Source: Bacteroidales bacterium
GTDB lineage: Bacteria > Bacteroidota > Bacteroidia > Bacteroidales > UBA12170
Reading direction: 5' to 3'
DNA length: 34,984 nt
NCBI GenBank assembly: GCA_021158405.1
Contig: JAGGUP010000185.1
Coordinates: 1-34,984 of the forward strand
The notes below the pieces were generated by a model. The model saw only the letters and a program-made list of their open reading frames with translations. It did no database searches and was not told where the DNA came from. Positions within the stretch are counted from its first letter, which is position 1, and each line of letters begins with the position of its first letter. Shown here piece by piece: positions 27,587 to 34,984 of this stretch. Both the position numbers and the translations under genes were made by a program.

Positions 27587-28921
27587 CTAGCTTTCCAATT
27601 CTTCTTCAATAAATTGAATCCCTAAAGTTGTTAGTTCTTTTAGAATTGGCTCGTAAATCACAGAGTCAAGTGGCAATTTTACTCCTGACGCTTTTATCTG
27701 TCCTGCTAAAATAAGTTTACACGCGATTGCAACAGGATAACCAACGGTTTTCGACATAGCCGTATGTGTTTGGTCTGTTCCTTCCACAGCCATGGTCGAC
27801 AAGATTGTTTTCTTTTTATCTCCAAAAGCAACTTCAAAACGGTGTTGCATTATAATCATATCCTTATCGTCTTTATCAAGCACCCATTTTTTAAGTAAAA
27901 TATGTTGTAAAATTTGAGCGGGAGTAGCCCGTTTTAATCCAATTTTAATTGGTTTAAAAAGATCAAGCCAACGAAGTTTATACATAATTTCACTATCCTC
28001 GTCAACGCCAACATATTTGGCTAATTTTGTTTCAACAGAGATTTGAGTTTCGTAGCGCAGAAATGAATTTACGAATTCACGATAGGTCATGTTTTCAGAA
28101 TCTTCAATAATAAAAGTATCGTCTGTCATACCCAATTGAACAAAAATATCCCAGCTACGCGAAAAACCAGGTCTGCGCATCGTTCCTCTCAGCATACTGG
28201 GAATATTATCCAAGCCATAGATTTCGCGGTATTTTAAGCTGTCGCGATTGGGGTAAATTTCAAACTCACCATAATTTAGAACTTCCGTTCTCAAAACGCG
28301 TTTAAATAATTTATGGTAAGGGATATACTTGTATTTTCCATTTCTAATAAACATGGATACGCCTTGTCCTGCTACAACTACGTTTCTAGGATTCCAAGTA
28401 AATTTATAATTCCACGGATTATTGTCATATTTTGGTGCTACCAAGCCACCTGTTGAAGATTGGAAACTTGTTATTTCACCCCCTTCGGCTTTAATGTTAT
28501 CGATTATCTGCATGGCCGACATATGATCTATACCGGGATCAACACCGATTTCATTAAGAATAAGCACGTTTTTTGCTATTGCTTCTTCGTTTAAAGCCTC
28601 AATTTGAGGTGATACATAAGAGGCGGTCACCATATTTTTGCTAAAATCAACACAGGCACGTGCCACTTTAAAATGCAGACTCGCAGGCAGCATAGACACT
28701 ACAATATCTGCTTTTTGTACTTCGCTGCGGCATTGTTCCTCATCATTTACATTAAAATAAAAGGCTTCTCCACGAGGATGTTGATTGATTTTTGCTTTCG
28801 CAGTTTCAACCGAAAGATCGCCTAAACGAATCTGCCAGTCAAAGTTTTCAGAATGATCGAGTAAATATTTTATCAGACTTGAGGCTGATAATCCGGCTCC
28901 TAAAATTAAAATGTGTTGCAT
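27587..28921 (-). CDS. Saccharopine dehydrogenase (glutamate-forming type)
   Basis: 444 aa. NAD(P) motif ILGAGLSASSL near the N-terminus, and the C-terminal saccharopine dehydrogenase fold with STGGLVAPKYDNNPWNYKFTWNPRNVV, matching the SDH half of the eukaryotic bifunctional enzyme AASS (and yeast Lys9). NEIGVDPGIDHMSA is another family block. The reaction is saccharopine to glutamate plus 2-aminoadipate semialdehyde. The LKR-like gene lies 85 bp upstream on the same strand, so the two halves of AASS are encoded as neighbours. A carboxynorspermidine-type activity cannot be fully excluded, but the partner supports lysine metabolism. Confidence 0.88.
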   Translation of the reverse strand: MQHILILGAGLSASSLIKYLLDHSENFDWQIRLGDLSVETAKAKINQHPRGEAFYFNVNDEEQCRSEVQKADIVVSMLPASLHFKVARACVDFSKNMVTASYVSPQIEALNEEAIAKNVLILNEIGVDPGIDHMSAMQIIDNIKAEGGEITSFQSSTGGLVAPKYDNNPWNYKFTWNPRNVVVAGQGVSMFIRNGKYKYIPYHKLFKRVLRTEVLNYGEFEIYPNRDSLKYREIYGLDNIPSMLRGTMRRPGFSRSWDIFVQLGMTDDTFIIEDSENMTYREFVNSFLRYETQISVETKLAKYVGVDEDSEIMYKLRWLDLFKPIKIGLKRATPAQILQHILLKKWVLDKDDKDMIIMQHRFEVAFGDKKKTILSTMAVEGTDQTHTAMSKTVGYPVAIACKLILAGQIKASGVKLPLDSVIYEPILKELTTLGIQFIEEELES

Positions 28922-28953
28922 GTTGTCTAAAATATGCGTTTCTAAATTTCTTG

Positions 28954-28961
28954 TAAAGGTA
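28954..28961 (-). promoter_or_regulatory. Weak -7 candidate TACCTTTA for the SDH gene
   Basis: Minus strand TACCTTTA, one mismatch from TAnnTTTG, 33 bp before the start. No -33 TTG. The gene may instead be read with LKR from upstream. Confidence 0.25.
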
Positions 28962-29006
28962 TATATTCCTTATTATTTACATTTGTATTAAGACAAAAAC
29001 TATTAA

Positions 29007-30317
29007 TTATTTTTTCTTTAGGAATTCGGCCATATAGGTAAAATCCGGAGTCAACTTTCCCTTATGTAAAATGAGCGCACGTTTAAATTCAGCCGGAACT
29101 TGCAGGTCCTCAAAAGAAACGCTATAATCGGCTTCTGCCAATTGTTTAACAAAATTTACAAGGACATTCCCAAAGGCTTCTGAAGATTCACGAGGAAGCT
29201 CGCTAGGCAAAATATCTACAGCCATAATTAAAAGACCGTCTCCTTCAAAACCCATAGTTGGAACGCGTGTTTTTGGATTGTAAACAAAAACAGGATCTCC
29301 AATATGCGTTCCCATATGAGTGGCTTCAATAGACCCATTTGGATCGCAAGTGACATCGCCAATAACTTTTAAGCGATGCTTGGTTTCATAGAGTTTTTCT
29401 AAAAAATCTTTGGTGATAATACGTGGATAGTGATCGTCCCAATACATGCAATTCATCAAAATACTGATGTGAGGAATATATTGTTCAAATTGACTCTTGT
29501 ATTTTTCGGGATTTTGATAATAATCCTGTAGTTCGAAGGTGTCGTTCTTATCGACAGGCGTTGATAAATCGGACTCTTTAAAAATAACCAAGTAAACACG
29601 ATCAAAAGAGAAACTGTTTTCATTTGATTTTTGTAGTAATTCTTTGGGACTTATTTCTTGAAATGGGAGCAGCGAAACAATCTCTTGAACGCCTTTAGAA
29701 GCGTTTCCATAACCGGTAATTCCAATAATTAATGGACCATTATTTGGATTGATGCCCTTTGTTTTTATATGATTACCAACTGCTTTAATAGCTTCGCGGG
29801 CTTCCTCAAGTGAGTTGTATTTATGCGATTGTTGTATGGAGGTGAATCCGCTTTCTTGTCCTAAAACTTTTAAGCGTTGTCCATAAGACCAAAGTGAATT
29901 AATCATGCCTGCCAAACCGGCAAATCGACCAAAAAAGATAAGGCGTTGATCCTTTTCGTTGGTTATCTTTTCGTACTCAATCAAGTTGATTTTATAATCA
30001 ATCATATTTTGAAGCAAAGGCATATTGTATTCTTGGCCTTTGATGGTATGAGAGAAAAATACATAGGTTTTATTTTCTTCGAAATAATTGATGGGCATTT
30101 CTTTTACTCCAAAAATTAAAGAAGCTTTCGAAATATCGGTTGTTATTTTAGCTCCGGCAATTCGATATTCTTCATCGGAAAAGACTCGTTTTTTTGAGGA
30201 TTCAACTAGAATTTCTAAGCCTTGATCTGTAAGCTGTTTAACGTGTATAGGTGCAAGTGCAGCACGACGTTCCATTTTGTATTTGTCCTCGTGGCGAATA
30301 GCGATTATTTTCCTCAT
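29007..30317 (-). CDS. Lysine-ketoglutarate reductase-like protein (saccharopine dehydrogenase, lysine-forming)
   Basis: 436 aa. An AlaDH/PNT-type N-terminal domain (IRHEDKYKMERRAALAP, AGAKITTD, FFSHTIKGQEYNMPLLQ) is followed by a nucleotide-binding domain (ITGYGNASKGVQEI) and a C-terminal part with IGDVTCDPNGSIEAT and VDILPSELPRESSEAFGN, which closely recalls the LKR half of AASS. It would condense lysine and 2-oxoglutarate to saccharopine. Located just upstream of the SDH gene; a -7 box lies about 40 bp before the start. The pair is a typical catabolic saccharopine route; the synthetic direction is less likely in bacteria. Confidence 0.88.
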   Translation of the reverse strand: MRKIIAIRHEDKYKMERRAALAPIHVKQLTDQGLEILVESSKKRVFSDEEYRIAGAKITTDISKASLIFGVKEMPINYFEENKTYVFFSHTIKGQEYNMPLLQNMIDYKINLIEYEKITNEKDQRLIFFGRFAGLAGMINSLWSYGQRLKVLGQESGFTSIQQSHKYNSLEEAREAIKAVGNHIKTKGINPNNGPLIIGITGYGNASKGVQEIVSLLPFQEISPKELLQKSNENSFSFDRVYLVIFKESDLSTPVDKNDTFELQDYYQNPEKYKSQFEQYIPHISILMNCMYWDDHYPRIITKDFLEKLYETKHRLKVIGDVTCDPNGSIEATHMGTHIGDPVFVYNPKTRVPTMGFEGDGLLIMAVDILPSELPRESSEAFGNVLVNFVKQLAEADYSVSFEDLQVPAEFKRALILHKGKLTPDFTYMAEFLKKK

Positions 30318-30442: not shown

Positions 30443-30469
30443 AACCCCGAGACACTTTGTCTCGGGGTT
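30443..30469 (-). terminator. Strong intrinsic terminator of the ECF-solenoid operon
   Basis: Perfect 11-bp arms AACCCCGAGAC (30443-30453) and GTCTCGGGGTT (30459-30469) with a 5-nt loop. Read on the minus strand the stem is followed directly by a T run, and it lies 20 bp beyond the last gene's stop. Confidence 0.93.
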
Positions 30470-30488
30470 AAAATCTATGGATTAGAGT

Positions 30489-31217
30489 TTAGTATTTTCG
30501 AACAGAAGAAGCCCCACTGATATCAATAAGATCAATACTTGGACTGCCTTTGTACCTTATACTTGAAGCTCCGGAAGCTTCCAATTCTAATTTCCCTGTC
30601 ACCCAGATACGGGCAACAGCAGCTCCTGAAGCGTCAATTTCGCAATTGTCTGTCTCAAGATCGAGAGCCTTGTAAACAGTTGCTCCTGAAGTTTCAATTA
30701 CAGCAGATTTTGCTCTACCGCTAAACGCTATTTTAGAAGCACCACTAAAGTCAGCTTCTAAACTTTCAATATCCAGTTTTAATTGAATTTCAGATGCTCC
30801 GCTAGCTTCAATCTCAAACGATTCTGTTGTTAGTACATCGTCACTGTAAATTGAAGCAGCTCCCGAAAGGTCAATTTCATCTATTGATTTGTAATAAATA
30901 GTGACTTTTAATTTGCTTGGGTCTCTGAAATCTCTTTTATTGTCTATCTCCAGAATGCCACCAAAAACTTTAGTAGTTACATAGGGCATAAGATTATCAT
31001 CAATCTCTAAAACCACCTTTTCTTTAGTCGCTTTAATCAAGGTTATTTCAAAAGCTCCGCCAACATCAATGCCGTGAAAACCATGCATATTGCGTGTTTG
31101 TTCAATCACATTACCGCTCCCTTTTATCCATCCAGAACTTGGAGTGGCAGCAATACTTGTTTGTAAAAACAATAGAGTTAACAGACTTAATCCTAATAAT
31201 TTAAATGTATTTTTCAT
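30489..31217 (-). CDS. Secreted head-GIN (DUF2807) beta-solenoid protein, SGA-repeat type
   Basis: 242 aa. Signal peptide 1-23 (ending SIAA). A N-terminal part with WIKGSGNVIEQTR and GIDVGGAFEITLI is the family opening. Seven SGA motifs (serine at 118, 139, 158, 177, 197, 215, 234) recur every 18-21 residues, one per predicted coil of a right-handed parallel beta-solenoid. Last gene of the operon, 11 bp after its GSGD-type paralogue and 20 bp before the terminator. Probably periplasmic or surface-located. Members of this family are often labelled putative auto-transporter adhesins, but no adhesin function is shown here. Confidence 0.88.
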   Translation of the reverse strand: MKNTFKLLGLSLLTLLFLQTSIAATPSSGWIKGSGNVIEQTRNMHGFHGIDVGGAFEITLIKATKEKVVLEIDDNLMPYVTTKVFGGILEIDNKRDFRDPSKLKVTIYYKSIDEIDLSGAASIYSDDVLTTESFEIEASGASEIQLKLDIESLEADFSGASKIAFSGRAKSAVIETSGATVYKALDLETDNCEIDASGAAVARIWVTGKLELEASGASSIRYKGSPSIDLIDISGASSVRKY

Positions 31218-31228
31218 GTTATTATGGT

Positions 31229-32032
31229 TTATTTAATTCTTACTATATCTCCAGATCCTGTGACTGTAATGTTTTTAAATTCGGGGCGCCCACTATAATA
31301 TAAATCCCCCGAACCGCTGATGCTGATATCAATACTTTTTAAAACAATTACACGAGCATCTCCGGAACTTGATTTTCTGATTTTTGCTTTTTCAATCTCA
31401 AATTCTCTCCCGGAAAAATCACCGGAGCCTGATTGCGATAATTCAAAATTATCTGTACTACCCACAAATCGGCTATCTCCCGAACCGTTCATTCTTAATT
31501 TGGCAGTCAGAAGATGAAGTTTGTTTGCAATTATGTCGCCAGAACCGGATTGTTTTAAATCCAGACTTTCGGTAATACCGCTAATAACCGCATCGCCGGA
31601 GCCGTTAACACTTCCAGTAACTACTTTGCTGTTTAACTCTGCTTCAAAATCGCCTGAACCAGTTACTCTAAACGAGAAATCAGGTGCTTTTAATTCTCCT
31701 TTTGTTTTAAAATCGCCTGAGCCGGAAAGGGAAACTTTTTTAAGATTTTTTACTTGGACATAAATTACCATTTTTCCAATATAATTCATCGACTTTCTCG
31801 TGAAAACGTGTAACTCACCGTTTTCAACTTCGGTAATAATATTTTCCATATACCTTGCCGGAGCGTTTACTTCCAAAGAATAGTGTCCAGTTTGCTCCAC
31901 TATAATATCGATAGAAGTGGAAGATCGAATGCTGGTAAAATTGCCCACGTCTCTTTTTTGCCTATCCACATTTGTAGCCTGAAGCATAAGAGCCAGTAAT
32001 AAAAAAATTAAACTTAAATGATATTTTTTCAT
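31229..32032 (-). CDS. Secreted head-GIN (DUF2807) beta-solenoid protein, GSGD-repeat type
   Basis: 267 aa. Signal peptide about 1-19 (LLLALMLQA). Opens with RDVGNFTSIRSSTSIDIIVEQ, as in DUF2807 proteins. Nine S-G-D motifs, eight of them GSGD and one SSGD (aspartate at 107, 128, 147, 166, 186, 205, 225, 243, 262), recur every 18-21 residues, one per coil. The register of the first repeats (21, 19, 19, 20) is the same as in the downstream SGA-type paralogue, which has two fewer coils. It starts 7 bp after the DUF4097-like gene. Exported; the aligned Asp row could bind cations, an inference. Confidence 0.88.
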   Translation of the reverse strand: MKKYHLSLIFLLLALMLQATNVDRQKRDVGNFTSIRSSTSIDIIVEQTGHYSLEVNAPARYMENIITEVENGELHVFTRKSMNYIGKMVIYVQVKNLKKVSLSGSGDFKTKGELKAPDFSFRVTGSGDFEAELNSKVVTGSVNGSGDAVISGITESLDLKQSGSGDIIANKLHLLTAKLRMNGSGDSRFVGSTDNFELSQSGSGDFSGREFEIEKAKIRKSSSGDARVIVLKSIDISISGSGDLYYSGRPEFKNITVTGSGDIVRIK

Positions 32033-32039
32033 AGCTTGT

Positions 32040-33110
32040 TTATTTTAAAATAATATTTGCACTTGCGTTATCAACAGATAACCGCATTGTTCCTTTTGCT
32101 TTTTCTTTAGATCCAAAATAGCCTTCCATCATTAAATCGGTCACGTCTTTTTGGAAATTGGTAATCGTAATTTTTTCTTTTGGGTAATTGAAAGAGCCCA
32201 GTTCAACATCTGTATAGAATGTGAAGTTTGAATTTTCATCAACATAAAGTTTTAGGCTGCAGAATTCACTACTTAGATCGATTAACTCAAAATCTGGAGC
32301 AATGGAGTATACTTTGAAACTTCCATATGCGGTTTTCATTTTCAAATTCTTTTTAAGTTGGTCAAGTTTAAATCCAGAAAACTCCAAGCTACCCGTTATG
32401 CTTTTAGCTTCGCCGATGCTTACTTTATCGTAAGAGGATTTCAGTATTAAATCGCCCACTTTTTCCAGGTTTACATTGCCCGAAAAGGAAGTCCGTAAAT
32501 TTAATTTGTTAGATTCTTCTATTTCGCATCCTCCATATTCAATTTCAATATTTCCTTCTGCAACGCTTGACGCTTGGAATTTACCAAAACTGACTTGAAT
32601 TTTATTGTTGGTAGAATACAGGTTATTAGCATTAAAATTGCCATATTCTACATCGATATCGGTGGCTCCATTGATATCTTCGAAGAAAGCACTGCCAAAC
32701 TCCGAATTTAGTTTTAAACGGCTATTTGCCGGATAATAAATAATAAAGTCGATGCTGATATTATTACTGCTTTTATTGAAAAAACCAGATTCAATACGGC
32801 TGATAATACTTACCAAATCTTTTCCTCCTTCAATTTCCAGTTTGATTCTTTTGAATCGTTCGTCGGCTTTAGATTGACTGCCGGCGTTGACGGTAATTGT
32901 AGCTTCAACACTTATTTTTTGCTTGTCCCAATTATAGGCTTTTATTTCTCCAAATTCAGTATTAATATCAAGCAGAACGCCTGCTTTGACATCAAAACTT
33001 TTGGATGTGCTTTTGGTGTATTCAGTTGCAAAAGCAGTGCTGCTAAAAAGCAATAGTGCGACTATGCTTAAGCCAATGGTTTTAAGTTTATTTTTAATAT
33101 TTTTCATCAT
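32040..33110 (-). CDS. Secreted DUF4097-like beta-solenoid protein
   Basis: 356 aa. Signal peptide 1-28 (ends STAFA). The rest is beta-strand repeats with an aromatic-Gly turn: TEFGEIKAY, SEFGSAFFE, VEYGNFNAN, VSFGKFQAS, IEYGGCEIE, TAYGSFKVY, VELGSFNYP and more, spaced about 18-25 residues apart. Matches the DUF4097/adhesin-like repeat families common behind ECF sigma genes in Bacteroidota. An unusually good Shine-Dalgarno (AGGAGG) precedes two adjacent ATGs (33110 and 33107); the second is at the better spacing. 19 bp after the anti-sigma gene, so in the same operon. Role unknown. Confidence 0.82.
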   Translation of the reverse strand: MMKNIKNKLKTIGLSIVALLLFSSTAFATEYTKSTSKSFDVKAGVLLDINTEFGEIKAYNWDKQKISVEATITVNAGSQSKADERFKRIKLEIEGGKDLVSIISRIESGFFNKSSNNISIDFIIYYPANSRLKLNSEFGSAFFEDINGATDIDVEYGNFNANNLYSTNNKIQVSFGKFQASSVAEGNIEIEYGGCEIEESNKLNLRTSFSGNVNLEKVGDLILKSSYDKVSIGEAKSITGSLEFSGFKLDQLKKNLKMKTAYGSFKVYSIAPDFELIDLSSEFCSLKLYVDENSNFTFYTDVELGSFNYPKEKITITNFQKDVTDLMMEGYFGSKEKAKGTMRLSVDNASANIILK

Positions 33111-33115
33111 TTAAT

Positions 33116-33121
33116 CCTCCT
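33116..33121 (-). promoter_or_regulatory. Shine-Dalgarno AGGAGG before the DUF4097-like gene
   Basis: Minus strand AGGAGG, 5 nt before the ATG at 33110 and 8 nt before the ATG at 33107. It is the only consensus-quality Shine-Dalgarno I noticed in the window, and the 8-nt spacing favours the second ATG. Confidence 0.7.
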
Positions 33122-33129
33122 ATTCTTAC

Positions 33130-33648
33130 TTATTGGGTTATACTAATGTTTGTGTTATTTACACATAACTGTGTGTAAATTTGATTTACCACTTCCGATT
33201 TTGCTTTGAGACTAAGGATATAAGCATTTTCCAGTTGTTTATTTCCTTGAGCTTGACCAAGTTTTTGTTCTAATTTTTCTGTGTTATTATCTAGCTTGCT
33301 CAAACGATCTTCAGCAGATTCAAAAAGCATCTCTTTGTTATTTGTTTTCATTGCGCAATCCCTTATTTCTATTATCTTTTCATCAGTTTGAGTGCTATAA
33401 TACATCTTCACGTGTAATAATTCTTCTGAAAGTTGGGGTTGTGTTTCCATACTTGGGAATTCTAATAGAGCAAAAATAGCAACCAGCAATAGAATGGTAA
33501 CAGAAGCTGCCAAAGCAAAAGTTGTTTTCGACGCAAAGAGAAAACCCTTATTATTTGTTTTTGGCTTTTCCATTCGGGATAATTTTGCAGCCATTTTTTC
33601 CAGATGATTTACCGAAGCTTCCTCATCGAAAAACGTTTTGTTTTCCAT
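33130..33648 (-). CDS. Single-pass membrane protein, candidate anti-sigma factor
   Basis: 172 aa from the ATG at 33648 (MENKTFFDEEASV); an ATG at 33678 would add 10 residues and overlap the sigma gene by 10 bp. The cytoplasmic N-terminal ~42 residues precede one membrane helix (about 43-62, FALAASVTILLLVAIFALL). The periplasmic part is helical, with a coiled-coil-like stretch (DRLSKLDNNTEKLEQKLGQ). I see no zinc-binding HxxxCxxC motif of ZAS anti-sigma factors. The assignment rests on position directly behind the ECF sigma gene and on the topology, so it is inference rather than family recognition. Confidence 0.65.
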   Translation of the reverse strand: MENKTFFDEEASVNHLEKMAAKLSRMEKPKTNNKGFLFASKTTFALAASVTILLLVAIFALLEFPSMETQPQLSEELLHVKMYYSTQTDEKIIEIRDCAMKTNNKEMLFESAEDRLSKLDNNTEKLEQKLGQAQGNKQLENAYILSLKAKSEVVNQIYTQLCVNNTNISITQ

Positions 33649-33668
33649 GATCTTGTTTTCTAAATTAT

Positions 33669-34244
33669 TTAAGCCCATTTCATTTCCCTTTCTGTTTGAA
33701 CTTTCTGAATCGCTTTTAATAGACTTTGTCGTGCTCGTGAATAACGCGTTCTGGAGAGGCCATAAGTAATGTTTTGAATAGTCGCAATCTCTTCGTGATC
33801 GTAACCTTCAAAAAGGTAAAGCGAAATAATAATGCGGTATTCTTGTTTAATTATTTTCATGGCTTCTTTTATATCTTCTAATCGACAATCATTTTCTATG
33901 TAATCTCCTTCTTCATCCGTTAGCAAAATCTGGCTTTCGTCTAATTCGTTTGTAGGTTTTTGTTTTCGAATAAAATCCATGGCATTATTTATTACTATTC
34001 TTTTTAGCCAGCCACCAAAACTTCCTTCTTCTCGATATAGTTGAATGCGTGTAAAAGCATTCAAAAAAGAATCTTGCATCACATCTTCCGCATCAGCCTG
34101 ATTTTTTAGAATTCGCAGTGCTGAATTATACATAGCTTTATAATAAAGCTGGTAAATTTCCATCTGCGCTTTCTGTTCGCCTTTTTTGCAAGCGGCTATC
34201 AGTTGATGATGAATATCGCGATATTTTGTTTTGGTGAACAACAT
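33669..34244 (-). CDS. ECF-type RNA polymerase sigma factor
   Basis: 191 aa. Region 2 includes ALRILKNQADAEDVMQDSFLNAF (core and -10 binding) and SFGGWLKRIVINNAMDFIRKQ; region 4 includes YRIIISLYLFEGYDHEEIATIQNI and SRARQSLLKAI, the -35 reading helix. Length and lack of region 1.1/3 fit ECF (group 4) sigma factors. It is first in an operon with a membrane protein and three exported repeat proteins, which suggests control of its own envelope regulon. A TATCTTGA upstream (34261-34268, minus) is a poor housekeeping -7; autoregulation through an ECF promoter is possible but I could not define one. Confidence 0.93.
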   Translation of the reverse strand: MLFTKTKYRDIHHQLIAACKKGEQKAQMEIYQLYYKAMYNSALRILKNQADAEDVMQDSFLNAFTRIQLYREEGSFGGWLKRIVINNAMDFIRKQKPTNELDESQILLTDEEGDYIENDCRLEDIKEAMKIIKQEYRIIISLYLFEGYDHEEIATIQNITYGLSRTRYSRARQSLLKAIQKVQTEREMKWA

Positions 34245-34306
34245 CTGTTATAATGACCTATCAAGATACAAATTGTTACACTCGGAACATAGAAAATTTA
34301 TTTTTC

Positions 34307-34353: not shown

Positions 34354-34984
34354 ATGAAAAGAGTTGTAGTGTTAGGAGCCGGTTTAGTGGGCGCTCCAAT
34401 GGCTTTAGATTTAGCCAAAAAAAATGAGTATGCTGTTTTATCAGTCGATTTTAATGAGTATAATTTCGCAAAATTGCAAAAAGCCGGAATTCAGACAAAA
34501 AAAATGGACTTTTCAGCAAGAGATTCTATTGAATCTGTCATTGCTGATGCGGATTTTGTTATCAATGCCACTCCGGGTTTTATGGGTTTCGAAAGTTTAA
34601 AACGCGTTATAAACTCAGGAAAGAATTGTATAGATATTGCTTTTTATCCTGAGAATATGTTTGATTTGGATGAGCTGGCAAAAGAAAAAGGAGTGGTTGT
34701 AATTTCAGATATTGGTGTGGCTCCCGGAATGAGTAATTTGCTTTCGGCTTATGGCACAACTTTGTTGGATGAAGCAGAAGACATAAAAATTTATGTGGGA
34801 GGATTGCCTGTAAAACGTGAATTGCCTTGGGAATATAAAGCTCCATTTTCGCCTGTGGATGTGATTGAAGAATATACCCGTCCTGCCCGTTTTGTCGTCG
34901 ATGGTCAGGTTATTACAAAAGCCGCCCTAACCGATGGAGAAATTATTGAGTTTCCTGTTATTGGTGAGTTGGAAGCCTTTAATA
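34354..34984 (+). CDS. Saccharopine dehydrogenase-family oxidoreductase, 3'-truncated by the window edge
   Basis: 210 codons are visible with no stop, running off the window. It starts MKRVVVLGAGLVGAPMA, a Rossmann dinucleotide motif, and continues with INATPGFMGF, IDIAFYPENMFDLDELAKEKGV, and DIGVAPGMSNLLSAYG, which fits the saccharopine dehydrogenase NADP-binding family (PF03435). IYVGGLPVKRELPWEYKAPFSPVDVIEEYTRPA is the start of the second domain. This shares the fold with the SDH at 27587-28921 but is clearly a different subfamily (for example lacking the STGGL..PKYDNNPWNYK block). The exact reaction, such as lysine dehydrogenase or carboxynorspermidine synthase type, is not clear. Divergent to the sigma gene. 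Confidence 0.82.
   Translation, partial: MKRVVVLGAGLVGAPMALDLAKKNEYAVLSVDFNEYNFAKLQKAGIQTKKMDFSARDSIESVIADADFVINATPGFMGFESLKRVINSGKNCIDIAFYPENMFDLDELAKEKGVVVISDIGVAPGMSNLLSAYGTTLLDEAEDIKIYVGGLPVKRELPWEYKAPFSPVDVIEEYTRPARFVVDGQVITKAALTDGEIIEFPVIGELEAFN

Follow-up and report, generated by a model that had tools for sequence, protein, structure and literature searches.

An ECF sigma-factor operon with three exported-looking Toastrack proteins, probably an envelope-stress module, in Bacteroidales and other Bacteroidota

The window analysed here is a whole contig of 34,984 bases (C63; JAGGUP010000185.1) from a Bacteroidales bacterium with a genome of 2.9 Mb in 187 contigs. It carries a compact operon of five open reading frames (ORFs), all on the minus strand, which encode an extracytoplasmic function (ECF) sigma factor, a putative anti-sigma factor and three exported-looking proteins, termed p3, p4 and p5, of one known fold, the 'Toastrack' beta-helix. 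Comparison with related genomes supports the operon as a dedicated, conserved system, probably an envelope-stress module. We read it as a self-contained, autoregulated envelope-response switch whose output would be periplasmic Toastrack proteins, with p3 likely providing feedback; we hold this reading to be likely, if only slightly so.

The operon and its conservation

The features of the operon, in order of transcription, are as follows.

34253–34280, minus strand: ECF-type promoter-like element TGTAAC-N17-GTC (TGTAACAATTTGTATCTTGATAGGTCAT), the spacing-17 element found upstream of sigma genes
33669–34244, minus strand: ECF sigma factor, 191 aa (Pfam Sigma70_r2, E 8.1e-16; Sigma70_r4_2, E 1.1e-8)
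33130–33678, minus strand: putative anti-sigma factor, 182 aa, assigned by position, overlap with the sigma gene and topology
32040–33110, minus strand: p3, exported-looking beta-helix of the Toastrack fold, DUF4097-like, 356 aa, assigned by family matches, structural model and fold comparison
31229–32032, minus strand: p4, exported-looking DUF2807 protein with nine GSGD/SSGD turns, 267 aa (PF10988, E 4.2e-49)
30489–31217, minus strand: p5, exported-looking DUF2807 protein with seven SGA turns, 242 aa (PF10988, E 3.3e-46)
30443–30469, minus strand: intrinsic terminator with a 12-bp stem (-22.9 kcal/mol, z -5.9)

The last four ORFs are separated by 19, 7 and 11 nucleotides (nt). An earlier, sequence-only reading had described the same five-gene set on one strand ahead of a strong terminator, and this stands; the 20-nt gap that it placed between the sigma gene and the membrane-protein gene is more likely a 10-nt overlap. 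Because a conserved N-terminal family motif (LExxI..N..FD) begins ahead of the internal ATG of the anti-sigma gene, position 33678 is its most likely start. The resulting overlap is present in all eight loci of the genus.

To follow the cassette across genomes, we used p3, which was found in 32 of 60 genomes, its own included. Elsewhere than in the own genome, p3 had 41 matches; all but the weakest (G038) were taken with their surroundings, as 40 stretches, which together with the window gave 41 loci. In 35 of them, p3 is preceded on its own strand by sigma and anti-sigma genes. The six exceptions comprise three loci cut by a contig end (L070, L085 and L099), two without a recognised anti-sigma gene (L086 and L100) and one without either gene (L095). 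A p3 profile matched 165 of 296 sampled Bacteroidota genomes, some weakly, with up to six candidates scored per genome; within this draw, it had no match in two genomes of family f51 of the same order. Among 29 further loci from the phylum, chosen as the best-scoring outside the own genome rather than at random, the sigma and anti-sigma genes precede p3 in all 29. A Winogradskyella contig (L116) likewise carries a sigma gene recognised by Pfam, a membrane-protein gene, a p3 relative and a DUF2807 gene. The gene order is thus not unique to its own genome, which supports the proposal of a dedicated system.

The DUF2807 genes are more variable: 17 of the 41 loci have one immediately after p3, and 21 of the 29 phylum loci have one downstream. 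Within the 41 loci, p4 occurs only in cassettes of the genus, in 8/8; p5 occurs in seven of the eight, one of them cut, and the eighth locus is also cut. In the phylum set, one downstream gene was labelled p4 (L177), yet in a tree it groups with p5-type genes of its family.

This distribution bears on an alternative in which the same sigma/anti-sigma switch operates but p3, p4 and p5 are outputs only, serving as periplasmic scaffolds or as lipid or peptide binders with no part in signalling. We regard it as a real, though rather unlikely, possibility. It accounts for the coming and going of DUF2807 genes while sigma factor, anti-sigma factor and p3 stay together, and an autoregulated operon requires no additional feedback protein. 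Moreover, in five other members of the order (L075, L080, L085, L086 and L092), a DUF2807-containing cassette has two small exported-looking proteins (~164–179 and 205–224 aa) encoded after it, and these resemble effector cargo. However, p3 follows the anti-sigma gene even where no DUF2807 gene lies downstream, and Toastrack-type or Lia proteins act on regulators in other systems, according to the papers discussed below. Four of the small exported-looking proteins were scanned and had no Pfam match; they are possibly outer-membrane barrels, although this is a guess.

A promoter-like element upstream of the sigma gene

The pattern TG[TC]A[AG]C-N17-GTC, drawn up from the first set of regions after inspection, lies upstream of the sigma gene in 26 of 38 regions (one of which belongs to a sigma gene outside a cassette), compared with a mean of 0.06 in dinucleotide shuffles. 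Other spacings of the two boxes, from 12 to 23, occur in 3 of the 38. In the phylum set, the same pattern precedes the sigma gene in 15 of 29 regions, counted with no shuffle control, and several near-misses stand at the same place. Since the element is conserved upstream of sigma at a fixed spacing, the operon is probably activated by its own sigma factor, and the coupling of operon and sigma factor proposed by the sequence-only reading is thereby supported. Only 10 nt separate the GTC box from the sigma start codon in the window, so the operon mRNA may be nearly leaderless.

The genes could instead be linked passively, being transcribed separately while the upstream element is read by another ECF factor. 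A second ECF sigma gene of the own genome does carry a similar element (L202). The small gaps, the single terminator, the order kept across families and the fixed-spacing element in most regions all argue in the other direction, and we consider passive linkage highly improbable.

The sigma factor and the putative anti-sigma factor

The first ORF encodes an ECF sigma factor, with regions 2 and 4 scoring 58 and 35 bits against Pfam cut-offs of 24 and 25.7. The second encodes a membrane protein that is putatively its anti-sigma factor. Its predicted topology comprises N-terminal helices (residues 3–37), a probable transmembrane (TM) helix (49–73) and a helical distal domain (85–176), and the structural model is all-helical with one long hydrophobic helix (mean pLDDT 84). 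Among 37 relatives, Pfam matches are scattered and weak and none is to an anti-sigma family, and a Foldseek search of solved structures returned no match at E ≤ 0.001. A profile search gave weak matches only, the best at E 0.0014 to viral fusion proteins, which we judged to be chance.

The protein of the window has two cysteines, Cys108 and Cys172, both in the distal helical domain. Of the 37 proteins, matched by eye, 14 have cysteines aligned with both positions, exactly or a few columns off, with L096 the loosest fit; the remaining 23 have no such pair, and 5 of these carry a single cysteine elsewhere. In the 29 phylum loci the pair occurs in none and a single cysteine in nine, in two of them (L173 and L183) in the distal half. 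A Cys108–Cys172 disulfide may therefore form in some clades only.

p3, p4 and p5 share the Toastrack fold

Both p4 and p5 score far above the PF10988 (DUF2807) gathering score of 24.2 bits, at 167.2 and 157.7 bits, respectively, and both have solved DUF2807 relatives by sequence. By contrast, p3 itself matches no Pfam family, PF13349 (DUF4097) included. As PF13349 is matched by 11 of 37 members of the p3 family, we call p3 DUF4097-like rather than a DUF4097 member.

AlphaFold2 models p3 as a beta-helix (mean pLDDT 93.3). In fold comparison the model aligns with the DUF2807 entry 3lyc at Z 17.6 over 219 residues and 2.9 Å; in all, five DUF2807 proteins of solved structure score Z 15–18, compared with ~12 or less for unrelated beta-helices. 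The top row is a chain of the Legionella Dot/Icm complex (Z 17.7). Foldseek TM-scores are low, 0.17–0.37 by query at E ≤ 0.001, and the p3 profile has no match among PDB sequences at E 0.01. Taken together, the model supports a Toastrack beta-helix fold for p3, so that the three proteins are one known fold differing in turn sequences. Three unrelated solenoid folds are rejected on the strength of the p3 model and its match to solved DUF2807 entries.

Of the three distinct solenoids that the sequence-only reading had seen, the difference in turns holds and the difference in fold does not. The turn repeats of p4 and p5 are real, with nine GSGD/SSGD copies in p4 (0.04 in shuffles) and seven SGA copies in p5 (0.23 in shuffles). 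The aromatic-Gly motif of p3, in a plain count of seven copies, is not above chance (shuffles mean 2.7, maximum 9). We also considered p4 and p5 as a recent duplication and rejected it, as they fall in separate lineages in a tree of 44 DUF2807 rows, which carried long-branch warnings.

Export and location

Using a simple hydropathy and pattern scan, which is not a signal-peptide predictor, we found that p3, p4 and p5 of the window each begin with a hydrophobic segment and show no lipobox. The segment is present in 69/69 p3, 9/9 p4 and 35/35 p5 proteins, all longer than 220 aa. The lipobox scan was negative for all 69 p3 and 9 p4 proteins, and 5 of the 35 p5 proteins gave a lipobox-like match. 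The Pfam and NCBIfam libraries contain sorting and autotransporter models. Scans of both up to E 0.1 listed no sorting (type IX secretion system), autotransporter or translocator domain for p3–p5, and chance-level matches only (CBM_35 for p4 and gasdermin for p5). Because no such domain is listed and p3–p5 have no lipobox, the simplest reading is that they would be soluble periplasmic proteins. Of the surface or periplasmic location suggested earlier, the surface half is accordingly not supported, no anchor having been found.

These results also bear on whether the solenoids act at the cell surface as adhesins in attachment or biofilm formation, as the Pfam name of DUF2807 and a report on Porphyromonas gingivalis PGN_1547 would have it. 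In that report, a PGN_1547 deletion mutant was impaired in biofilm formation and attachment (PMC10949514). Given the missing lipobox in p3–p5 of the window and in the p3 and p4 sets, and no sorting or autotransporter domain, we find an adhesin role improbable, although 5 of the 35 p5 proteins do have a lipobox-like match.

Similar elements elsewhere in the genome

A first, strict version of the element pattern matched the operon alone in its own genome. TGTAAC-N17-GTC has 16 sites there, compared with 8 for the reversed control, and 11 of these are correctly oriented ahead of a gene. In the own genome the element precedes an outer-membrane efflux (OEP) gene followed by a HlyD-like gene, and an ABC ATPase gene, the ATPase being named by eye. 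Sharing a general element with other genes is as expected of ECF promoters.

The element also precedes genes of CBM9/DUF5916 relatives. In the genus, the element lies within 250 bp upstream in 8 of 29 loci (two of which have less than 100 bp of upstream sequence), compared with 0.01 in shuffles. In another family, drawn from 22 cassette-bearing genomes of which 17 have a DUF5916 relative, it lies within the same distance upstream in 11 of the 30 loci taken from 39 listed, with no shuffle control. The sites stand 32–95 bp ahead of the start codon and occur in two orders (L131, L140–L145 and L147; L219, L221, L223, L224, L226, L228–L231, L233 and L240).

Two findings argue against a dedicated link to DUF5916. 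In 12 genomes without a listed p3 match, although p3 may have been missed with up to six candidates scored per genome, six have DUF5916 relatives and 2 of 9 such genes carry the element. Conversely, G002 and G009 have the cassette but no element-bearing DUF5916 relative. Directly before GTC, 8/8 cassette and 8/8 DUF5916 sites of the genus have a base other than C, whereas C stands there at 13 of 15 other upstream sites, taken from three genomes (Fisher 9e-5); this comparison is post hoc, and the orthologues in it are not independent. For the other family, the corresponding DUF5916 split (9:2 compared with 8:5) lacks significance (p 0.39). The evidence that the cassette sigma factor might read the DUF5916, OEP/HlyD-like and ABC ATPase sites is thus mixed, and we treat DUF5916, for which we found no paper in the open-licence literature searched, as a lead rather than as part of the system.

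Sites of the form TGTAAC-N17-CGTC in the own genome, 14–140 bp upstream of their genes, likely mark a second ECF-type regulon. They precede another ECF sigma gene, PspC and then LiaF-TM genes, a DUF6249 gene, an exported-looking protein without a Pfam match and an OEP (TolC-type) gene, at the following loci.

L214, 7671–8258 (C163)
L216, 2833–4370 (C35)
L217, 2443–2766 (C54)
L200 (C138)
L198 (C105)

Similar site-bearing PspC, DUF6249, OEP and exported-looking genes, matched by eye, recur in G006 and/or G010.

Other genes adjoin the operon. A saccharopine-dehydrogenase-like gene (34354–34984, plus strand) is divergent from the sigma gene, and its relatives adjoin the cassette in L061–L063, L065 and L066 and in two other families (L071 and L072). 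Downstream, on the same strand as the operon (27587–30317, minus strand), lie an alanine-dehydrogenase/PNT-domain gene and a saccharopine dehydrogenase gene, a pair with close relatives near the cassette in L061 and L064.

Comparison with known systems

Ravi et al. (2024, PMC11237479) argue for an intracellular location of Toastracks (DUF2154, DUF4097 and DUF2807), which in their systems frequently come fused to TM domains. The systems described there share the fold and stand repeatedly beside regulators, with one mention of an operonically linked sigma factor, whereas here three free-standing, exported-looking Toastracks accompany an ECF sigma/anti-sigma pair. In Bacillus subtilis, the yvlABCD operon includes the Toastrack protein YvlB and is partly under the ECF envelope-stress factor sigma-W; unlike the operon here, it has PspC and holin-like partners and is described without a sigma or anti-sigma gene in it (PMC12791056). 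Bacteroides thetaiotaomicron Dma/Das likewise pairs a Bacteroidota ECF sigma factor with an unusual membrane anti-sigma factor, but Dma domains span from the outer membrane to the cytosol, whereas the protein here is a single-pass helical protein of 182 aa (PMC13088901). The DUF2807 proteins with solved structures from Parabacteroides and Bacteroides (3lyc, 3jx8, 3ljy, 3pet, 4opw and 4ygu) are related to p4 and p5 by sequence and to p3 by fold, but are named only as putative adhesin, pectinase or lipid-binding protein.

Enterococcal LiaX carries a DUF4097 domain. This stress effector acts within its own regulatory system, LiaFSR, where its C-terminal part is inhibitory (PMC11601895); unlike the operon here, that system is a two-component system of a Gram-positive. 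A Pfam scan found no hallmark of the phage-shock-protein (PSP) or Lia systems (PspA, PspC or LiaI–LiaF TM) among the five operon proteins, and the PspC and LiaF-TM genes of the own genome lie outside the operon, on contig C35. We did not find the combination of exported Toastracks with an ECF sigma/anti-sigma pair in the open-licence literature searched; an earlier mention of this sigma group with DUF4097 neighbours in other literature is possible. The parts are of known kinds, their combination is new relative to the literature searched, and the membrane protein matches no Pfam family.

Proposed mechanism

In the resting state, the single-pass membrane protein, acting as anti-sigma factor, would hold the ECF sigma factor through its cytosolic N-terminal helices. 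A signal perceived at the helical periplasmic domain would free the sigma factor, which would then transcribe its own operon from the TGTAAC-N17-GTC promoter. The periplasm would be filled with the soluble Toastrack beta-helix proteins p3 (DUF4097-like), p4 and p5 (both DUF2807), most likely as scaffolds or binding platforms at the stressed envelope. We propose that p3, whose gene comes after that of the anti-sigma factor in almost every locus examined, most likely also contacts the periplasmic domain of the anti-sigma factor, adjusting or shutting off the response much as the LiaX C terminus restrains LiaFSR. RseB acting on RseA offers a further analogy.

Several observations weigh against this switch. 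The putative anti-sigma factor of the window has no Pfam family and matches no known anti-sigma domain. The element is missing from 12 of the 38 regions and from 14 of the 29 in the phylum set (one of which has no upstream sequence), close relatives in these counts are not independent, and the phylum set is the better test, the pattern having been derived from the first. TGTAAC-N17-GTC also precedes other genes, the second ECF sigma gene of the own genome among them; it is thus a general ECF-type element, which gives no proof that the cassette sigma factor reads it. For p3, the profile match to DUF2807 is weak (hhalign probability 56% over 53 columns), and its model aligns with 4qrk at Z 12.3, no better than with unrelated beta-helices (up to 12.2); 4qrk is a Toastrack example named by Ravi et al. 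(PMC11237479).

A more specific version would make p3 a periplasmic co-regulator that binds a new, Pfam-less family of anti-sigma factors, disulfide-tuned in some clades, with the sigma factor driving both its own operon and the CBM9/DUF5916 envelope protein throughout Bacteroidota. We consider this full version doubtful.

The widespread Toastrack domains have no settled function; in this operon they are free, exported-looking proteins with their own regulator. The operon makes the proposal that Toastracks are intracellular, as set out in PMC11237479, directly testable. If the more specific version holds, the system would be a Gram-negative, exported counterpart of the Lia and Yvl responses, with a Toastrack working outside the cytosol.

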